23,461 bases of DNA, taken from a virus. The notes beneath the pieces were generated by a model. That model did no database searches and had not been told where the DNA came from. It saw only the letters and a list, made by a program, of their open reading frames with translations. Made by a program: the position numbers and the translations under genes. Location of the stretch: the IMG/VR virus record IMGVR_UViG_3300009128_000133, positions 1 through 23,461 of that record, one strand, 5' to 3'. Positions 1-10,206 of this stretch are shown piece after piece (the first letter of the stretch is position 1; each line of letters begins with the position of its first letter).

Positions 1-468
1 CATGTCACCCCCCCCCTGACACCCATGTCACCCGAAGGTAAGCCATTGAAGGTAACCAAGCAGAAGGATGGCCAAGAAGACCAAGGCCTCTTGCTCATTT
101 CGCCAGAAGACGATTCGCCCAACGGCACCTTCACCGACGAGGACGCGGAGATGATCTTCATGGTGTACCCCCGGAGGGTGGGGAAGAAGGCGGCGCTGCA
201 GAAGATTCACTCGGCACTCGTCATTCTCCACAAGCGGGGCATCGAGGACCCAGTTGAGTGGCTGCACGACAAGACCCTCGAGTTCGCCACGTCGCCAAAG
301 GGTCAGGCTGGGCAGTTCTGCCCACATCCGAGTACGTGGTTCAACCAGGGGCGTTATGACGATGACCCACGGGAGTGGTCGAGGCTGGATTCTTACGCCA
401 AGGCTACTCCGCGGAGCATGGACGAGCAGAGGCGGGCAATTGTCGCCAGAGCGGAGGGCAGAGCATGA
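1..468 (+). CDS. Replication initiator / replisome organizer, C-terminal part (cut by window edge)
   Basis: The frame is open from the first base, so the gene probably begins upstream; the first in-frame ATG is at 25. The N-terminal residues visible are a Thr/Pro-rich stretch (VTPPLTPMSP) of the kind that links domains in phage O-type and DnaD-type initiators. The C-terminal part holds the pattern YPRRVGKKAALQKI followed by FCPHPSTWFNQGRYDDDPREW. From family knowledge this combination closes many phage replication initiators and helicase-loading proteins. The DNA-binding N-terminal domain is not in the window. The stop overlaps the next gene (ATGA). Role in starting phage replication is inferred from the C-terminal signature only. 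Confidence 0.65.
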   Translation, partial: HVTPPLTPMSPEGKPLKVTKQKDGQEDQGLLLISPEDDSPNGTFTDEDAEMIFMVYPRRVGKKAALQKIHSALVILHKRGIEDPVEWLHDKTLEFATSPKGQAGQFCPHPSTWFNQGRYDDDPREWSRLDSYAKATPRSMDEQRRAIVARAEGRA

Positions 469-704
469 AGTACCACGAGATCGAGGGAGTATGCGGCGGT
501 TGCGGAGGGATCATGGCCGACTGCGGGAGCCCGACGACAGATGATTCGCCCCCAGAGGGCGCCCGGGTGTACTGCTGCGAGTGCGGTCACCTGATGTTCG
601 CTGACGGCGAGGGGCAGTTGCGGGAGCCTTCGTTGGCAGAGGTGTGCTGTTGGAGCGAAGAGGAGTGGTCTGAGATCCTTGAGGTGCAGGAGGTGTTGGC
701 GTGA
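465..704 (+). CDS. Small zinc-ribbon protein
   Basis: Protein of 79 residues starting at the ATG that overlaps the previous stop (ATGA). It carries two cysteine knuckles, CGGC at residues 10-13 and CCEC at residues 37-40, so it most likely binds one zinc ion. The remainder is acidic, ending in a W/E-rich tail. No catalytic motif is visible and I do not recognise a named family. Its position between the replication gene and the cytosine methyltransferase suggests translational coupling with both. Function unknown. It could be a nucleic-acid or protein adaptor. Confidence 0.7.
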   Translation: MKYHEIEGVCGGCGGIMADCGSPTTDDSPPEGARVYCCECGHLMFADGEGQLREPSLAEVCCWSEEEWSEILEVQEVLA

Positions 705-1990
705 CATGGGTACACGTCCCGTCAACGTGCTCTCAATCTGCTCCGGAGTCGGAGGCCTCGACCTCGCCGCCCGTCTGGCAGTGCCACATGCTCGCACTGT
801 CTGCTACGTGGAGAGGGAAGCCTGGGCGATTGCCTACCTGGCTGAGGCGATGGAAGCGGGTCTCCTGGATGCAGCGCCTGTGTGGGATGATCTTGCGACC
901 TTCAACGGCGAGGAGTGGCGTGGAGTCGTGGATCTCGTCATTGCGGGCCTGCCGTGCCAGCCGTGGTCAGTTGCCGGCAAGCAGCGAGGCCACGACGACG
1001 AGCGAGCCATCTGGCCCGACTTCATCCGAGTCGTGGACGAGTGTAGACCCTCCCTGGTCTTCCTCGAGAACGTCCCAACTTTCGTTACCGCTGGATGGTT
1101 TCTACGACCGGGAGATGAGCTATCGCGACTGGGTTACGAGCTCGCGGACCCGCTCTTCCTACGTGCGTCGGATGTTGGTGCAAGCCATCGGAGGGAGCGG
1201 GTGTTCATCCTGGCCCACACCAGACGCCAGTGCCGGAACGGGCTACAACCAGACGGACTCCCCGGGGGCAGCGAAGAGGCCGCTGCTGGGGGCGAAGGTG
1301 CAGGAATGGCCCACGCCTCGCAGCGAGAACACGGACTCGACGAGGACCGAGGGCGGGAATCCGGCCAAGGATGGGAGGGTACTGTCGCAGACAGCGAGGC
1401 TCTGGGGCACCCCTCGGGTAACGACGAACTCCGGAGTGGGCAACACCGGACGGGACGAGCAGTGCAGGCTGGAGGACCAGGCGGCGAGTTGGGCAACACC
1501 TGCTGCCCAAAACTGGAAGCAGGGATGGACGAATCAGGAGAACTCCCGACCACTACAGGAGCAAGCCAATGCATGGGAATCGACCAAGAGTGTGCCCGAA
1601 CTGTTGCCGAGCAGCGATCGAGGAGGGAATCTGTCGAGCGGGGAATCTCTGCCCGGGATGCCAAGGGATATGCAGCACTCCCACTCTTTGCCCCCGGCCC
1701 AAGCGACCGAGACGCCTGGGAGTTCACCCTCAGCCGGGACCCGACACTCGAACCTGCCAGTGAAAAAGCTATTGGAGTCGTGGCTGCAGCGAGGCGACTA
1801 TACAGATTGGCGCTCACTACGGGTAATCGTCGAAGCCGCGGGCAGGCAAGCTCCCAAGCGTTTGAACCCGCGCTTCGTCGAGTGGCTTATGGGAGTCCCG
1901 CCGGGCTGGACCATCGCGTCGATAGACTCCGAGCACTGGGAAACATGGTTGTCCCGATGCAGGGAGCAGTTGCGCTTTCTGTGCTGTTGA
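701..1990 (+). CDS. Overlapping +1-frame ORF with WPTP repeats inside the methyltransferase gene
   Basis: A 429-codon frame without stops covers nearly the whole methyltransferase gene. It starts with a GTG at 701 that overlaps the upstream TGA and lies 6-7 bases after the same AGGAGGT. Its second half contains WPTPDAS (1211), WPTPRS (1307), WGTPR (1403), WATPAAQNW (1490) and, near the end, RLNPRFVEWLMGVPPGWT. From family knowledge, WPTP repeats followed by LNPxFVEWLMGxPxGWT are the hallmark of the C-terminal part of many phage Dcm proteins and of standalone phage ORFs. Here they lie one base out of frame with classical methyltransferase motifs. The first half (to about 1100) looks like a shadow. 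Translation is unproven. Confidence 0.3.
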   Translation: MTWVHVPSTCSQSAPESEASTSPPVWQCHMLALSATWRGKPGRLPTWLRRWKRVSWMQRLCGMILRPSTARSGVESWISSLRACRASRGQLPASSEATTTSEPSGPTSSESWTSVDPPWSSSRTSQLSLPLDGFYDREMSYRDWVTSSRTRSSYVRRMLVQAIGGSGCSSWPTPDASAGTGYNQTDSPGAAKRPLLGAKVQEWPTPRSENTDSTRTEGGNPAKDGRVLSQTARLWGTPRVTTNSGVGNTGRDEQCRLEDQAASWATPAAQNWKQGWTNQENSRPLQEQANAWESTKSVPELLPSSDRGGNLSSGESLPGMPRDMQHSHSLPPAQATETPGSSPSAGTRHSNLPVKKLLESWLQRGDYTDWRSLRVIVEAAGRQAPKRLNPRFVEWLMGVPPGWTIASIDSEHWETWLSRCREQLRFLCC

Positions 1991-2007
1991 AGGAGGTCCT
2001 ACTGTGA
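706..2007 (+). CDS. C5 cytosine-specific DNA methyltransferase (Dcm-like)
   Basis: 433-residue protein that transfers a methyl group from SAM to C5 of cytosine in DNA. The canonical motifs appear in order: motif I LSICSGVGGLDLAARL, motif IV with the catalytic cysteine GLPCQPWS, motif VI FLENV, motif VIII HRRERVFI, then a long variable target-recognition region rich in MAHA/LGH/LGNT-type repeats, and motif X RLRALGNMVVP near the C terminus. The ATG at 706 is preferred; AGGAGGT at 688-694 precedes it, while a TTG at 679 lies inside the upstream gene. It likely protects phage DNA from host restriction. A second complete open frame runs through the same DNA (see the 701-1990 entry). Confidence 0.9.
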   Translation: MGTRPVNVLSICSGVGGLDLAARLAVPHARTVCYVEREAWAIAYLAEAMEAGLLDAAPVWDDLATFNGEEWRGVVDLVIAGLPCQPWSVAGKQRGHDDERAIWPDFIRVVDECRPSLVFLENVPTFVTAGWFLRPGDELSRLGYELADPLFLRASDVGASHRRERVFILAHTRRQCRNGLQPDGLPGGSEEAAAGGEGAGMAHASQREHGLDEDRGRESGQGWEGTVADSEALGHPSGNDELRSGQHRTGRAVQAGGPGGELGNTCCPKLEAGMDESGELPTTTGASQCMGIDQECARTVAEQRSRRESVERGISARDAKGYAALPLFAPGPSDRDAWEFTLSRDPTLEPASEKAIGVVAAARRLYRLALTTGNRRSRGQASSQAFEPALRRVAYGSPAGLDHRVDRLRALGNMVVPMQGAVALSVLLKEVLL

Positions 2008-2240
2008 GCCAGATGACGAAGCAAAAAGCACACACCCAGCTCACCGAAGCAGGGCACTCTCCAGTTGACCATGTCATCCGAGCCCTCATCGACGCCTCAA
2101 CGCTGCCGGAGGAGCCGGAGTACGCCCCGTGTCCATTCTGCGGGAGTCAGCCTCAAATCGGAGTCGAAAGGGCGTCTTGCAGCAGCTACGACCACAGCAT
2201 TTCCGTGTTCAAGGAGAAGTGGGGGAAGTGGAACCGATGA
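2004..2240 (+). CDS. Lar-like restriction alleviation protein
   Basis: 78-residue protein. It contains PCPFCGS in the middle, a later cysteine (ERASC), and ends with FKEKWGKWNR. The layout CPFCG, then cysteine, then a terminal W..WN matches the Lar_restr_allev family, small zinc-ribbon proteins of phages and prophages whose founding member reduces type I restriction of unmodified DNA. The start is a GTG overlapping the methyltransferase stop, with AGGAGG at 1991-1996 and a 7-base gap; an ATG at 2013 is too far from that site. Position next to a DNA methyltransferase fits an anti-restriction role. Many proteins of this family are untested, so the function is inferred. Confidence 0.65.
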   Translation: MSQMTKQKAHTQLTEAGHSPVDHVIRALIDASTLPEEPEYAPCPFCGSQPQIGVERASCSSYDHSISVFKEKWGKWNR

Positions 2241-2575
2241 CCCGCAGCCAAGCCGCCAGCCCCGCGAGTGACCTCGACCGGAAGGTAGGCGCCCTCGTCA
2301 TGCTCAAGGGCGTCCTGAGGACCTACGGGGAGAAGTCAGACGAGGACCTGGCTGTGTTCGCCCGGTCACTGGACGACCTGACTGCTGACGAGGTGGATGT
2401 TGCCTCTCAGGTGATTCTCAAGAACGACACCGAGTTCCCGACGCCTGCTCGGTTCCATGAGATTGTTGGCAGGATGCGGTGGCGCGTGGAACACGTTGCG
2501 TTCCAGCGTCACATGGTGGCTGTGAGCGGAATGGGGCAGTTGCCCGAGGGAGCTCGGAAGGAGTTGGCGGAATAG
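2237..2575 (+). CDS. Possible replication accessory / helicase-loader-like protein
   Basis: 112 residues from the ATG overlapping the Lar stop (ATGA). The open frame extends upstream to 2129, but that part overlaps the Lar gene. The central section, helical and acidic, reads LTADEVDVASQVILKND followed by TEFPTPARFHEIVGR. A turn containing FPTPARF after an acidic helix is common in phage helicase loaders and replisome accessory proteins (for example the G39P type), in which a helix bundle binds the replicative helicase. That resemblance is weak. Position in the replication region supports it. It may equally be an unrelated small protein. Confidence 0.55.
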   Translation: MTRSQAASPASDLDRKVGALVMLKGVLRTYGEKSDEDLAVFARSLDDLTADEVDVASQVILKNDTEFPTPARFHEIVGRMRWRVEHVAFQRHMVAVSGMGQLPEGARKELAE

Positions 2576-2576
2576 C

Positions 2577-2696
2577 ATGTTCACCATAGGCGTTCGGTTT
2601 GAGTTCAGTGCCGCGCATAGCCTGCCTAATGTTCACGAGAAGCATCCGTGCCGAGAACAGCGTGGTTTGATGACGATGACGACGTGGTGTTCATAG
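2577..2696 (+). pseudogene. queD: Truncated QueD-like (6-carboxytetrahydropterin synthase) remnant
   Basis: The 39-codon frame starting at 2577 opens FTIGVRFEFSAAHSLPN and continues VHEKHPCRE before running into unrelated sequence and a TAG. QueD/PTPS proteins begin with a beta-strand ending FxFxAAH, whose histidine binds zinc, then a catalytic cysteine in HxCxxLHGH. Here the first histidine and the cysteine are present, but the LHGH zinc ligands and the remaining roughly 90 residues are absent. It is therefore a fragment, not a working enzyme. Right after it, a frame from 2648 to 2719 encodes PRTAWFDDDDDVVFI and looks like the tail of another lost gene. The adjacent DpdA-like gene belongs to the same 7-deazaguanine chemistry, which supports the call. 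Confidence 0.55.
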
Positions 2697-2715
2697 CCTG
2701 CGAGGTGAGGAAGAC

Positions 2716-3384
2716 TTGACAATTTACACGTCAAATGCTAATGGGAACAAGCTGAAAGAAGTGGGGCGACTGGGCATGGGGATGCTTCTTGTGGCGAATC
2801 CATCAAAAATAAGCGAAACGTATAGACACTATACTACCGCTTTAGACAATGGCGCGTTCCAGTATTGGAAGCGAGGGCTTCCGTTTATCGAAGAACCGTT
2901 CTTGGAGTCTATTCGGAAAGTTGCCGAGAAAGGGCTTTCGTTGGAGTTCATTGTAGTGCCAGATATTGTCGCTGGCGGGAAAGAGTCTCTCGCGTTCTCT
3001 ACTGAGTGGATTCTCGGAAATCTAAGAACCGCCCCTCGATTAGCACTCGCTGTGCAGGATGGAATGGAACCGTCAGACGTAAAGAATGCGGGGATATTAC
3101 GCAAGCTTACGCATATTTTCGTCGGAGGAACGCCAGAGTGGAAGTGGGCTGTCGCTTCGGAGTGGGTTGACTTTGCGCATGACGAGGGGAAAAAGTGTCA
3201 TATTGGGCGCTGCGGCACGTTGGATAAACTTCAGCGTGCCAATAGGATTGGCGCGGATAGTGTTGACAGTAATATGTTTGTACGATACGACAATTGGCAC
3301 ATCGTGGACGAGTTCCTGAATCCTGGACAGATGGAGTTGCCGATGGACGAGGCGCGGAAGGAGCGAGATGCCATCCCTGAATGA
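2716..3384 (+). CDS. DpdA/Tgt-like 7-deazaguanine transferase paralog
   Basis: 222 residues. Recognisable blocks are ALDNGAFQYW, IVVPDIVAGG, LAVQDGM, IFVGGTPEWKW, KKCHIGRCGT and GADSVDS. This is the pattern of a short phage family related to tRNA-guanine transglycosylase and DpdA, a TIM barrel that swaps guanine for a 7-deazaguanine; PD and the DSVDS aspartates correspond in place to the acid/nucleophile positions of Tgt. A DNA-modification role is inferred. The start is TTG overlapping the TGA of an upstream frame, with GAGGTGAGG just before it; the start matches the family's YTSN opening. Hand counts of four 60-base rows give 48-53% G+C, against 62-70% for rows in neighbouring genes, so the gene may be recently acquired. 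Confidence 0.65.
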   Translation: MTIYTSNANGNKLKEVGRLGMGMLLVANPSKISETYRHYTTALDNGAFQYWKRGLPFIEEPFLESIRKVAEKGLSLEFIVVPDIVAGGKESLAFSTEWILGNLRTAPRLALAVQDGMEPSDVKNAGILRKLTHIFVGGTPEWKWAVASEWVDFAHDEGKKCHIGRCGTLDKLQRANRIGADSVDSNMFVRYDNWHIVDEFLNPGQMELPMDEARKERDAIPE

Positions 3385-3892
3385 CCAACGAGGAATGATG
3401 AATCCGACCGAGCCAGCGCGCGCGTTCGTGTTCCCGTCACTACCCGAGGGCTTCGAGGCGCCGGCTGGCCTGGATCCCACCGAGAGGAAGATCTGGGGCG
3501 CGAAGAAGCTGGGAGCTCTGTTGGCTCGAGACCCGAAAGACAGCCCGATCTTCGGCCATCGGTGCATGAGGCGCCGGGCGGAGAGGTCACGTCGAGGGAA
3601 GCAGACGCGGGAAGAGAGGATCGTTGAGTCGACGCCGCCCAGCGAGTTCGAGGGGATCCTGTCACTGAAGGGATCTGATGACCCGGACACGATCCGCGCG
3701 GGAGGACTTCTCGGCCCAGTGGTGATGAACGACCCGATTGCGGCCCAGGCGATAGCTGATGGATTCCGGGAGGTGAAGGATGCCCAGGAACAAGACGAGG
3801 TTCGTCAAGCGATCACAGCGGGTGAATCGTTGGACGGCGAAGCAGGGTCCGTCGAGGATAACGCGATCGCCAACCCTTGGGGTGTGCGGTAG
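3368..3892 (+). CDS. Hypothetical protein
   Basis: 174 residues if started at the ATG at 3368, which has GGAAGGAG four bases upstream and overlaps the DpdA-like gene by 17 bases; ATGs at 3395 and 3398 are alternatives. A Pro-rich N-terminal stretch leads to PTERKIWGAKKLGALLARD, then an Arg/Lys-rich patch (MRRRAERSRRGKQTREER) and an acidic, Ala-rich C-terminal half. There are no obvious catalytic residues, membrane segments or zinc knuckles. I do not recognise the family. The basic patch would suit nucleic-acid binding, but that is a guess. Its 3' end overlaps the next gene by 113 bases in another frame. Confidence 0.55.
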   Translation: MPSLNDQRGMMNPTEPARAFVFPSLPEGFEAPAGLDPTERKIWGAKKLGALLARDPKDSPIFGHRCMRRRAERSRRGKQTREERIVESTPPSEFEGILSLKGSDDPDTIRAGGLLGPVVMNDPIAAQAIADGFREVKDAQEQDEVRQAITAGESLDGEAGSVEDNAIANPWGVR

Positions 3893-3998
3893 GTGCGGGA
3901 GGCCGACCTTCGCCTTGGCGAGTATCTGCCGGGCGTGCTACGGTGAGGGGCAGTATCGGGTTCAACCTGTTGGGGGCGACGAGGAGGAGTCGGAGTGA
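3780..3998 (+). CDS. Small basic zinc-knuckle protein
   Basis: 72 residues. A very basic N-terminal half (MPRNKTRFVKRSQRVNRWTA) is followed by two knuckles, CGRCG and CRAC, and an acidic tail (GGDEEESE). One zinc ion could be held by the four cysteines. GGGAGG at 3768-3773 sits six bases before the ATG, which is good support for real initiation although the start is inside the preceding gene. The stop overlaps the GTG of the next gene. No known function; a nucleic-acid binding adaptor is possible. Confidence 0.6.
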   Translation: MPRNKTRFVKRSQRVNRWTAKQGPSRITRSPTLGVCGRCGRPTFALASICRACYGEGQYRVQPVGGDEEESE

Positions 3999-4483
3999 CC
4001 GAGACCAGAAGAGCTAAGCTGAACTACGACCGTCTCCAGTGGCTGCATTCGTCGATCAGGAACAAAGTCCACGCGGTGTTGACGGATCTGGAGGGGCACG
4101 GGCTGAAGCCGCTCATTGCCAGCTCGACGTATCGGACGCCGGCGCAGCAGAGGAAGCTCAAGAGGCAGGGGCGATCGAAGCTCTCGTGGGGATTCCACTG
4201 CGCGACGAAGAACGGGAAGCCCTGTGCTCTGGCGGCAGACATCGTGGATGCCAACAAGGGCTGGGGGGCTTCGTTCAAGTTCTGGATGATGCTGGGGAGT
4301 TCGGCCACCGCCCACGGGATGGAGTGGGGAGGCTTCTGGGGTTTGCCCAAGGCACTACGACACGAACTCAAGCGTGCGTGGTTGTACAAGCGCTGGGAAC
4401 GCCGGAAGATTGGCTGGGACCCGGCCCACATCCAGACGAAGAACTGGACTGTCCGCGAAGCTCGGAGGGCGTTTGGAGGATAG
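3995..4483 (+). CDS. M15-type D,D/L,D-peptidase, probable endolysin
   Basis: 162 residues. STYRTPAQQ is followed by GFHC at residue 68, ALAADI with an aspartate at residue 82, HGMEWGGFW around residue 110 and DPAHIQ with a histidine at residue 145. This His..Asp..His order is the zinc site of the peptidase M15 family (SxHxxGxAxD and DxxH), which includes phage endolysins and bacterial D-Ala-D-Ala or L-Ala-D-Glu peptidases that cleave cell-wall peptide stems. There is no signal peptide, so a holin or other release route would be needed; none is visible nearby. Start is GTG overlapping the previous stop, with GAGGAGGAG at 3981-3989. A particle-associated entry lysin is an alternative. Confidence 0.75.
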   Translation: MTETRRAKLNYDRLQWLHSSIRNKVHAVLTDLEGHGLKPLIASSTYRTPAQQRKLKRQGRSKLSWGFHCATKNGKPCALAADIVDANKGWGASFKFWMMLGSSATAHGMEWGGFWGLPKALRHELKRAWLYKRWERRKIGWDPAHIQTKNWTVREARRAFGG

Positions 4484-4485
4484 TC

Positions 4486-5460
4486 ATGCCGACGAAGATC
4501 GAGTGGATCGAGGAGACTTGGAACCCCATTGTGGGCTGCTCCAGGATCGACAAGGAGACGGGGTGCCGCAACTGCTACGCCGTGCGGATGGCCCGGCGGC
4601 AGATGAAAACGGCGAAGTACAAAGGGCTGACGTATCGTGACGACGCTGGAACAGACCTCTTCTATCCCAACTGGACTGGCGAGGTCCGCTTCGTGGAGAG
4701 CGAGTTTGAGAAGCCGCTGCGGTGGCGGAAGCCTCGTACCATCTTCGTGTGCAGCATGGGGGATCTGTTCCACGATTCTGTCGATGGAGATTGGCTGAAT
4801 GCTGTGTTGGACGTTGTGCGCCAATGCCCGCAACATCAGTTCGTCATGCTGACGAAGCGGGAGGTGAACATGCGTGCTCGCATGGAGGCGGCATGGGTAG
4901 TACGGGCGTACTCTGGCCAAGTATTGCCCAACCTCGCCCTCGGCGTCTCATGCTCCACGCAGGAGGAACTCGACAGGCGCGTGCCGGTGCTGCTGGATAC
5001 TCCGGCGGCTTGTCGGTTCGTGTCGTTGGAGCCGTGTCTCGCCGAAGTCAACGTGGTGCCATACTGTGGCGGTAGCACGTATCGTTGTGAGTGTGGTTGG
5101 CATGAAACGGAGCGCGAGTTATTTGTCTCGGGTGGCGAGGCGCTGTGCATGGAGTGTCAGCGCAAGGCGACTATCTTCCCATCTCTCGACGGCATCATAG
5201 TCGGCGGCGAGACCGGACCCGGCGCGAGGCCCATGCACCCGGACAACGTGCGGAGCGTGCGCGACCAGTGCGCGGAGGCTGGGGTGAGCTTCTTCTTCAA
5301 GGGTTTTGGAGAGTACGCATGGCAGTACATGCCAACCTCCCACAATGGCACGCCAACGTCCAACTCGTTTGACTTTGTTCGCGTCGGCAAGAAGAACACC
5401 GGTCGCACCCTCGACGGCCGCACCCACGATGACCTGCCGTGGAGGTGCCATACGCCATGA
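4486..5460 (+). CDS. Phage Gp37/Gp68 family protein (DUF5131), radical SAM-like
   Basis: 324 residues starting at ATG with GGAGGA five bases upstream. It opens IEWIEETWNPIVGCSR, then C27 and C30 in GCRNCYA, followed by FVCSMGDLFHDSV, FVMLTKR, LALGVSCS, FVSLEPCLAEV, IIVGGETGPGARP and FFFKGFGE. This is the full order of blocks of the phage Gp37/Gp68 family. C18, C27 and C30 resemble the iron-sulfur cysteines of radical SAM enzymes, but the substrate is unknown. Unusually, a four-cysteine zinc-ribbon-like insertion (CECGW and CMEC) sits just before the GGE block. It is coupled to the next gene by ATGA. The open frame extends upstream of 4486, but that part overlaps the peptidase gene. Confidence 0.85.
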   Translation: MPTKIEWIEETWNPIVGCSRIDKETGCRNCYAVRMARRQMKTAKYKGLTYRDDAGTDLFYPNWTGEVRFVESEFEKPLRWRKPRTIFVCSMGDLFHDSVDGDWLNAVLDVVRQCPQHQFVMLTKREVNMRARMEAAWVVRAYSGQVLPNLALGVSCSTQEELDRRVPVLLDTPAACRFVSLEPCLAEVNVVPYCGGSTYRCECGWHETERELFVSGGEALCMECQRKATIFPSLDGIIVGGETGPGARPMHPDNVRSVRDQCAEAGVSFFFKGFGEYAWQYMPTSHNGTPTSNSFDFVRVGKKNTGRTLDGRTHDDLPWRCHTP

Positions 5461-8150: not shown

Positions 8151-8713
8151 TGGGATACGCAGGAACAGGAATAGATCCTTGGCTCGAGCGACTTGGGGCG
8201 TCGGAAAAGCAGATTGTGCTGATGGAGGTGGGTGTCTTCCAGGGCGATCTTGCCAAGGAGGTGTTGGCGCGCTTCCCACTTCTGCGCTACGTCGGCATCG
8301 ACCCGTACCGCTACCAGCCGTCCTATGATGCAGACGTCCCGATCAAGGACGACACCAACGATCAATCGCGGCTTGACAATGCACGGGCAATGGCATGCGG
8401 TGTGGTCAGCGAACACATCCACCGCGCAAAGCTCCTTGTCAAGGAGAGCCTGGAAGTGTGTTCGGACTTCTTGCCAAACTCAGCCGATATCATCTTCATC
8501 GACGCCGACCACCGGGAAGAAAGCGTCGTTCAGGACATCCACGCCTGGGCCCCGATTGTGAAGCCGGGCGGAATGTTGACAGGACACGACCTCGGCATCT
8601 GGAAGAGCGTCGACGCAGCGGTAAGCCGATGTGCCGAGTCTGTGTGCAAGGACTGGCCCTTCGAGGCAATGGGAGCCATGTGGGCGTTCACGAAACCAGA
8701 GGAGACAACATGA
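8150..8713 (+). CDS. Class I SAM-dependent methyltransferase (Methyltransf_24-like)
   Basis: 187 residues from ATG 8150; GGAGG at 8138-8142 gives 7-base spacing, so this start is preferred to the GTG three bases earlier. Motif I reads LMEVGVFQGDLAKEV, motif II YVGIDPY, and a later block DIIFIDADH is followed by VKPGGMLTGHDLG. The order and the IDADH block match the Methyltransf_24 group, which methylates small molecules, often sugars or secondary metabolites, rather than DNA. Flanking glycosyltransferase and epimerase genes suggest O-methylation of a sugar. It overlaps the next gene by ATGA. The exact substrate cannot be read from the sequence. Confidence 0.75.
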   Translation: MGYAGTGIDPWLERLGASEKQIVLMEVGVFQGDLAKEVLARFPLLRYVGIDPYRYQPSYDADVPIKDDTNDQSRLDNARAMACGVVSEHIHRAKLLVKESLEVCSDFLPNSADIIFIDADHREESVVQDIHAWAPIVKPGGMLTGHDLGIWKSVDAAVSRCAESVCKDWPFEAMGAMWAFTKPEETT

Positions 8714-10206
8714 GATCCCCCAAAGACATGACCGTCATTCAGATCGACATCACGAACGCCTGTAACCGAACGTGCTCCAACTGCCAGCGGTTCTGCGGCT
8801 ACCACGAAGAGCCGTTCTTCATGGATCTGGACACCTACGTGAAGGCCGTAGACAGCTTGGCCGGGTTCCAACGGCAGGTCGGTATGATCGGGGGCGAACC
8901 GTTCATGCACCCTGACTTCGACGAGATGTGTGCCATCCTGCGGAAGAAGCGGCCCCGTGAACTGTGCGGTCTCTACACCGCAATGCCGCCGGCCTACTGG
9001 CGCAACTTCAACATGGTTCACGATACCTTCGGCCCGCAGAACCTCAACGAGCATTCCCAGGAGATCACGCACCAGCCTCTCCTCGTGAAACACGAAGATC
9101 TCGGGATCGACCGGGAGTTGTCCGAGTGGTACGTCGCTCACTGCTGGGTCCAGATGTGCTGGAGTGCGACGGTGACGCCGTGGGGGGCCTATCTGTGCGA
9201 GATTGCTGCTGCCATGGACATCCTACGCGGCGACCCTCATGGTTGGCCCGTGACAAGCGACTGGTGGTGCATCGACCCGCTATCCGCTGACTTCAGGGAG
9301 CAAGTCAATCGCTTCTGTTACGACTGTGGCGCCTGTATCCCGCTGGAGCTACGGCACGACTACGAGCGGATTACCGATGTGTCCCAGACGTGGGCCGACT
9401 TCCTCGAAGGCAAGCCTCGGCTGAACCTGCTCACGAAGGACGATCTTCAAGATCTGGATAGTTGGCTTCCCGGACGGGCCCGGTACGCAGTCACCTACAA
9501 CATGCTCTCCGACAAGACCAAGGAGCGATATCAGGGGCTTCACAATTCCTGGTCGAAGGGCCGCGGCGAGAAGATTGAGCGTGTGACGGCGTGCGTGGAC
9601 TATGACGACACGTTGGGGAGATCGCTTGACTCGACGAAGGGTGTGTTCGACAACACGATTGTCGTATCGTCGTTTGACGACCGCGCTACCCACGAAGTCT
9701 GCGAAGCCCGGGATGACGTGCAGTTGGTCAAGACAACCCGCTTCCGCGAAGACGGAGCCAAGTTCAACAAGGGGAAGGCTCTCAACGACGCCTTCGAGCA
9801 TCTGAAGCACCGGCAGTGGGTCTGTGTCATGGATGCCGACATTGTTGCCCCGCCAAACGTCGGGGAAGCCGTAAAGCAACTGAAGACCATGAATCGCTCT
9901 GCTCTCTACGTTGCCGCGCGGCGCCGTCACCCAAGCGGAATGCGCTGGGATTGGGATGCCCAAGAACACCTCGGCAAGTCCGCACCGGGACCTTGGCCGC
10001 CGGGATTCTTCTCGGTCTTCCACTGGCACGCCATCAAGTGGAACCCGGTCTACCCGGAGAACTGGCCGGCCGCCAACGGATCGGACTCGGAGTTCAGCCA
10101 ACGCTTCAGCACCAACAAGATGCAGTGGGGCGTCATCCCCATGGAGTGCCAACACCTCGTGCCCGGTGAAGTCAACTGGAAGGGGAGAGTGAGCGAGCGT
10201 GTTTGA
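8710..10206 (+). CDS. Radical SAM/SPASM-like - glycosyltransferase fusion protein
   Basis: 498 residues in two parts. The N-terminal part has the radical SAM cluster motif CNRTCSNC (Cys 18, 22, 25), then MIGGEPFMHPDF (the GGE SAM-contact motif), and later CWSATVTPWGAYLCE plus CYDCGAC, which resemble the auxiliary-cluster (SPASM/twitch) cysteines. The C-terminal part, from about residue 295, has TACVDYDDTL, NTIVVSSFDD, FNKGKALNDAFEHLK and WVCVMDADIVAPPN, the donor-site pattern of a family 2 glycosyltransferase with a DxD. The radical SAM half could modify a peptide or a sugar. The ATG overlaps the preceding stop. Co-location with sugar genes points to glycan chemistry. No frameshift is needed: it is one continuous frame. 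Confidence 0.75.
   Translation: MRSPKDMTVIQIDITNACNRTCSNCQRFCGYHEEPFFMDLDTYVKAVDSLAGFQRQVGMIGGEPFMHPDFDEMCAILRKKRPRELCGLYTAMPPAYWRNFNMVHDTFGPQNLNEHSQEITHQPLLVKHEDLGIDRELSEWYVAHCWVQMCWSATVTPWGAYLCEIAAAMDILRGDPHGWPVTSDWWCIDPLSADFREQVNRFCYDCGACIPLELRHDYERITDVSQTWADFLEGKPRLNLLTKDDLQDLDSWLPGRARYAVTYNMLSDKTKERYQGLHNSWSKGRGEKIERVTACVDYDDTLGRSLDSTKGVFDNTIVVSSFDDRATHEVCEARDDVQLVKTTRFREDGAKFNKGKALNDAFEHLKHRQWVCVMDADIVAPPNVGEAVKQLKTMNRSALYVAARRRHPSGMRWDWDAQEHLGKSAPGPWPPGFFSVFHWHAIKWNPVYPENWPAANGSDSEFSQRFSTNKMQWGVIPMECQHLVPGEVNWKGRVSERV

Follow-up and report, generated by a model that had tools for sequence, protein, structure and literature searches.

A methyltransferase-like gene in a viral record raised the question of whether one stretch of DNA, read in two overlapping frames, could encode the two structural domains of a single C5 DNA methyltransferase. 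The window, by which we mean the whole stretch of DNA analysed here (IMG/VR record IMGVR_UViG_3300009128_000133, 23,461 bases), contains replication-initiation, endolysin-like and terminase genes according to PHROG matches.

Overlapping reading frames at the methyltransferase locus

The original prediction described two overlapping frames with methyltransferase-type C-termini at 1130-1990. This overlap is real and larger than described, with a beta ORF (701..1990, GTG 701, 429 aa) lying in the +1 frame on an alpha ORF in frame 1 (706..2007, ATG 706, 433 aa), both of them, like all of their features given below, on the plus strand. Frame 2 is free of stops from 683 to 1987, so that the beta ORF spans the entire methyltransferase gene. 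An antisense ORF at 1134-1817 had no family match in Pfam or PHROG. Elsewhere in the window, a 222-aa ORF (2716-3384) matches phrog_15826 (unknown function, 2.6e-24), and a 603-aa ORF (8395-10206), 3′ of the terminase-like gene, has weak PHROG matches to radical SAM proteins.

Division of methyltransferase motifs between alpha and beta

Alpha matched PF00145 (9.5e-29) over residues 6-173, with motifs I-VIII, including PCQ and ENV, present, and phrog_363 ("DNA methyltransferase", 1.4e-47). In its AlphaFold model, pLDDT was above 80 and mostly above 90 at residues 1-170, below 50 over most of 178-325 and about 94 near 421-430, and the best Foldseek matches of the model were M.HaeIII and M.HhaI. 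The large domain with motifs I-VIII (706-1209) is followed by an open, low-complexity linker (about 1210-1850) and then by motif X, RLRALGNMVVP (1924-1956), which had been correctly recognised in frame 1; it conforms to GNxVxP, occurs only in alpha, and its G412 and N413 are invariant in 75 homologues. The view that frame 1 encodes a complete methyltransferase did not hold, as Pfam covers residues 6-173 only, motif IX and a recognisable target-recognition domain (TRD) are absent from alpha, and residues 178-325 are disordered in AlphaFold. The modelled alpha consists of a large domain that is interrupted by disorder at the place of the small domain.

The beta frame matched phrog_1008 ("DNA methyltransferase", 2.5e-21) and phrog_27243 (unknown function, 2.5e-11). 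Beta is without a catalytic core, and searches of Pfam, NCBIfam and PDB sequences with it gave nothing useful; weak MS2 coat-protein matches were taken as chance. Its N-terminus reads MTWVHVPS in the window and MWLYVPS in relatives, and its N-terminal half (701..1210) lies over the alpha catalytic core. It continues into a putative target-recognition region (1211..1855), in which the expected repeats were found (WPTP at 1211 and 1307, WGTP at 1403 and WATP at 1490), each the +1 reading of LAHT, MAHA, LGHP or LGNT in frame 1, and then into motif IX (RLNPRFVEWLMGVPPGWT, 1859..1912), where LNPRFVEWLMG, also expected, was located at 1862. The beta segment LNPRFVEWLMGVPPGWT aligns with motif IX of C5 methyltransferases, and a gap-free, position-by-position alignment could be made between RLNPRFVEWLMGVPPGWT of beta and RLTPRECARLQGYPDSY of a canonical methyltransferase.

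In C5 methyltransferases, motifs I-VIII and X form the large domain, and the TRD and motif IX form the small domain (PMC3404938). Motif IX (beta) and motif X (alpha) of the window are 80 nt apart across the two frames, and in phage proteins Vash gp33, YungJamal gp6, Cerulean gp80 and SchottB gp4 motif IX precedes the GN of motif X by 32-54 residues within one ORF. Since motif IX of beta aligns with the canonical enzyme and precedes motif X in the split relatives, the small domain is placed in beta. Beta alone was modelled by AlphaFold at low confidence (pTM 0.27), and Foldseek found no PDB structure match for the model, so that the WxTP repeats were assigned to the TRD by position; this position, together with the adjoining motif IX, suggests that the WxTP region could be the TRD.

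Beta might alternatively be a separate overprinted protein with another function, such as a regulator or an anti-restriction factor, rather than a methyltransferase subunit, as its lack of a Pfam or PDB match and the conserved residues proper to its N-terminal half would allow. We consider this unlikely, because alpha misses exactly what beta has, TRD and motif IX, at the right place, and because the split relatives hold motifs IX and X in one ORF following a core-only ORF.

Conservation of the double-coded design in phages and bacteria

The first relatives were found in Acidovorax phage Alfacinha1, Synechococcus phage Ssp-JY39 and one IMG/VR contig, each with two full-length overlapping frames and a beta beginning MWLYVP or MWLYIP. 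The tblastn matches of beta in phages were weak (4 records), because TRDs diverge fast, and a scan of viral contigs with the window beta alone gave no matches, a four-sequence alignment being required. Viral contigs were therefore scanned with a beta alignment and, separately, with an alpha alignment (80 loci each), and bacterial genomes supplied 80 further loci, mostly from Alphaproteobacteria, with some from Verrucomicrobia, Chloroflexi and Planctomycetota. Beta played no part in the selection of the alpha-found loci. The same contigs recur across sets, and statistics were computed on non-redundant loci.

The loci were compared with profiles of the core and motif X of alpha and of the N-terminus and motif IX of beta. 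In 242 of the 252, core and motif X share one frame and both beta elements lie within a single open +1 ORF, and beta was the +1 frame of alpha in all 132 non-redundant loci. By these profile matches, at least 200 further phages and bacterial genomes share the double-coded design, and most annotations give one protein of the two.

A few loci depart from this pattern by an in-frame beta stop (L035/L088) or a frame change (L023/L155). At L035:2498-3835/L088, one contig from an AT-richer genome, a single in-frame stop cuts beta into ORFs 2498-2869 and 2873-3835, which could reflect an error, a decaying gene or a beta that is truly split. At L023/L155 (one contig) and at L213, it is the third frame that holds motif IX, and motif X shares the frame of the beta N-terminus, which could be due to an indel, to misassembly or to yet another arrangement of frames.

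Stop-codon depletion and selection in alternating frames

In 5000 synonymous shuffles of the window's frame 1, +1 stops averaged 5.4 against none observed (P=0.0004), WxTP averaged 0.21 against four observed, a number never reached, and the motif-IX string never arose, while three plasmid R-M methyltransferases used as a control had +1 stops as expected by chance. Among 72 non-redundant alpha-found loci, 6 stops were observed in the +1 frame against 234 expected from synonymous-codon shuffles, the leftover ones mostly in the last tenth of the gene, where beta ends; in the same loci no depletion was seen in the +2 frame (762 vs 849) or the reverse frames (observed/expected 363/363, 388/411 and 624/621). 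The wider set of 129 non-redundant loci had 21 beta-frame stops against 505 expected, and 227 flanking genes, taken as a control, had 2054 against 2018.

The frame under selection was followed along the gene in 55 independent close pairs, all from the window's subfamily, the second-subfamily pairs being too divergent. Alpha position 3 was most variable in the core (54:0), as expected if the alpha frame is selected, and alpha position 1, which is beta position 3, in the TRD (44:8), pointing to the beta frame; the beta frame was also favoured in motif IX (33:2) and the alpha frame after motif IX and in motif X (45:1). The codon position that varies most differs by segment, therefore selection changes frame at domain borders: judged from these substitutions, the core (I-VIII) and motif X are selected in frame 1, and the WxTP region and motif IX in frame 2. 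Thus the proposed overprinting of the recognition region found strong support; the idea that both readings are kept as recognition domains did not, since selection there acts on frame 2 and frame 1 is an open, fast-changing linker.

Beta residues also fix the third bases of alpha codons. Among four-fold degenerate codons of alpha, the third base set by beta W77 was G in 68 of 72 cases (22.8 expected), that at beta L60 was T in 64 of 66 (12.3 expected) and that at V of FVEW was T in 49 of 50 (6.1 expected); W3 acts likewise over the core, where 34 of 58 four-fold degenerate alpha columns exceed z=4, these z values being large excesses and not probabilities, as the sequences share ancestry. The fixed alpha third bases over the core thus indicate that the beta N-terminal half is a selected protein segment, not just an open frame. 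Two observations had been named as speaking against overprinting, common frame-2 stops in homologues and a lack of reduced synonymous change; the stops proved strongly depleted and the alpha third bases constrained by beta residues, and overprinting withstood both.

It had also been suggested that a frameshift near 1150-1210 joins the core to the WxTP tail. Such a programmed +1 shift would yield a fusion of core, TRD and motif IX, for which the collinear domain order speaks, as does Gordonia phage SchottB gp4, whose single ORF with core, IX and X indicates that frame changes occur in evolution. In a gene of this type, however, the second frame upstream of the shift is free to hold stops, whereas beta has 2 stops over the catalytic core against about 142 expected, and its residues there are selected; a downstream shift needs neither. 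The beta start is its own and conserved, and alpha is open through the TRD to motif X, with 0 alpha-frame stops over the TRD against 491 in beta-synonymous shuffles, a set that required motif X in the alpha ORF and that shows alpha to be open rather than how often it is so. The fusion would moreover be without motif X unless the ribosome shifted back. The frameshift is unneeded and disfavoured, and we regard it as quite improbable.

A second subfamily and other arrangements

An alignment of a second-subfamily alpha type, first met in an additional pair at locus L055, fetched 80 viral contigs with no beta used. All 76 non-redundant loci were free of +1 stops across twelfths three to eleven of the gene (0 vs 234), and stops were normal outside the nested ORF, in the first twelfth (114 vs 98) and the last twelfth (65 vs 51). 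By its stop-codon distribution, the second subfamily carries a nested beta with sharp borders. Both frames are annotated in Phage K1G (ADA82277 and the nested +1 ADA82276, "Mte8-like") and in Xanthomonas phage PhiXhv-18. One phage contig (L055) has two overprinted pairs from different subfamilies in tandem, at 2215-3651 and 3888-4826.

That the open +1 frame is a fossil of one recent frameshift or a chance product of high GC (62% in the window, long open frames being common in such DNA) can hardly be credited, as it is contradicted by the synonymous-shuffle and flanking-gene controls, by equal depletion of beta-frame stops in members at 46-54% GC, by the sharp limits of the stop-free stretch in the second subfamily and by the frame-specific substitutions.

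Four arrangements could be distinguished, namely a full-length overprint (window), a nested overprint (K1G), a core ORF with an overlapping TRD-IX-X ORF after it (Vash gp32/33, YungJamal gp7/6 and Cerulean gp81/80), and motifs IX-X in the core frame, as in SchottB gp4 (L005:1501-2571), where the +1 frame has LPTP-like repeats that end at a stop codon. A partial +1 ORF with NPTWLAWLMGFP was observed at L003:1504-2217 and in cluster F mycobacteriophage methylases. Out-of-frame HNH insertions have been described in mycobacteriophage methylases (PMC11855218); the genes that carry them could be double-coded too, and this may have to do with the lack of stops in the insertions.

Start region and proposed model

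GTG 701 and ATG 706 stand behind a single Shine-Dalgarno-like AGGAGG (688..693, plus strand) common to both, as originally noted, and the stop TGA (702-704) of an upstream plus-strand ORF (375..704) overlaps the beta start GTG. Among 119 loci, the beta start reads NTGTGG in 72, with the GTG start of alpha overlapping it at +2, and an alpha start codon lies within -13 to +11 nt of the beta start in 117; the beta start abuts or overlaps a TGA in 70, and a Shine-Dalgarno-like motif occurs in only 69. Several loci have an alpha-frame stop 1-4 nt upstream, so that the GTG at +2 is the earliest possible alpha start. The conserved M-W of beta may be partly set by the alpha start codon, and the upstream ORF is, from its overlap, probably translationally coupled to the beta start.

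Across the loci compared, both frames are conserved and open, with selection switching frame by domain, and it is very probable, on this comparative evidence, that two separately initiated polypeptides, with starts 2-5 nt apart, assemble into one bipartite overprinted C5 methyltransferase. Ribosomes would reach the one Shine-Dalgarno site, probably in coupling to the upstream gene, and would start at either GTG 701 for beta or ATG 706 for alpha, each chain then being translated straight through its own passenger region. Alpha would bring the large domain, responsible for SAM binding and bearing motif X besides the catalytic PCQ and ENV motifs, and beta the small domain, with the WxTP target-recognition region and motif IX, so that their pairing as a heterodimer could rebuild the ordinary I-VIII / TRD-IX / X fold. 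The paired enzyme would be active in methylating phage DNA, presumably against host restriction.

Implications for phage methyltransferases

We lean towards the view that large groups of phage C5 methyltransferases as a rule have the overprinted bipartite form, their frames being kept in the databases as unrelated "DNA methyltransferase" or "hypothetical" families (phrog_363 versus phrog_1008 and phrog_27243), and that the small domain switched frames more than once (nested, full-length, AquI-like and single-frame), so that the recognition subunit could be exchanged or tuned independently of the catalytic subunit. It is rare that one enzyme has its two structural domains in different frames of one DNA stretch and that selection switches exactly at their borders, and with two subfamilies and several split forms to compare, the evolution of overprinting becomes measurable. 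A likely function is thereby offered for WxTP phage proteins of unknown function. The double coding also explains why gene callers choose different frames in near-identical phages, such as the cyanophages Ssp-JY39 and Yong-M2-251, which have identical match statistics at this gene and of which the former is annotated with beta (hypothetical protein) and the latter with alpha (methyltransferase). Where past work expressed such a phage methyltransferase from a single frame, the product may have been half of the enzyme. In DNA length, the overlap brings no saving over a normal single-chain enzyme, and the reason for its upkeep is a testable question.

Comparison with known systems

The kind of arrangement described here is known from a single R-M enzyme, and the nested ORF is already annotated in some phage records. 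The R-M enzyme, M.EcoHK31I, recognises YGGCCR, and Lee, Kam and Shaw are said to have reported in 1995 that its beta is read from an alternative frame within the alpha gene; two chains from overlapping frames of one DNA, which we found here, would then be a shared feature. In this two-polypeptide C5 methyltransferase, the large subunit contains motifs I-VIII and X and the small subunit motif IX (PMC3404938), and the window divides these motifs between its two chains in the same manner, the likeness being one of motif partition and not of compared sequences. The predicted TRD of M.EcoHK31I was assigned to the large subunit, whereas selection puts the TRD region of the window in beta. Unlike in M.EcoHK31I, the window beta equals alpha in length and has its start next to that of alpha, in an arrangement conserved over many phages.

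M.AquI recognises CYCGRG. It is a naturally split alpha/beta C5 methyltransferase whose small subunit contains motif IX as well as motif X (PMC3404938). The window differs from it in that motif X is read in alpha, whereas Vash gp32/33, YungJamal gp7/6 and Cerulean gp81/80 have the M.AquI-type partition. Phage K1G is like the window in that ORF30, a nested +1 ORF with LNPAHSRWLMGYP, lies within a C5 methyltransferase gene, ORF31 (putative C-specific methylase), but the K1G beta begins about 88 nt inside alpha, whereas that of the window begins beside the alpha start, and the K1G record proposes no function for it. PHROG lists phrog_363, matched by the alpha frame, and phrog_1008, matched by the beta frame, as separate families, without stating that they represent two frames of a single gene.

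Our literature search, which did not extend to subscription journals and bioRxiv, did not find the arrangement, and the nearest descriptions were the split-enzyme summary in PMC3404938 and the HNH insertions in PMC11855218. As far as this literature goes, the full-length overprint, the common start region, the change of selected frame from domain to domain and the wide distribution among phages are the new features that distinguish the present locus and its relatives from the enzymes above.
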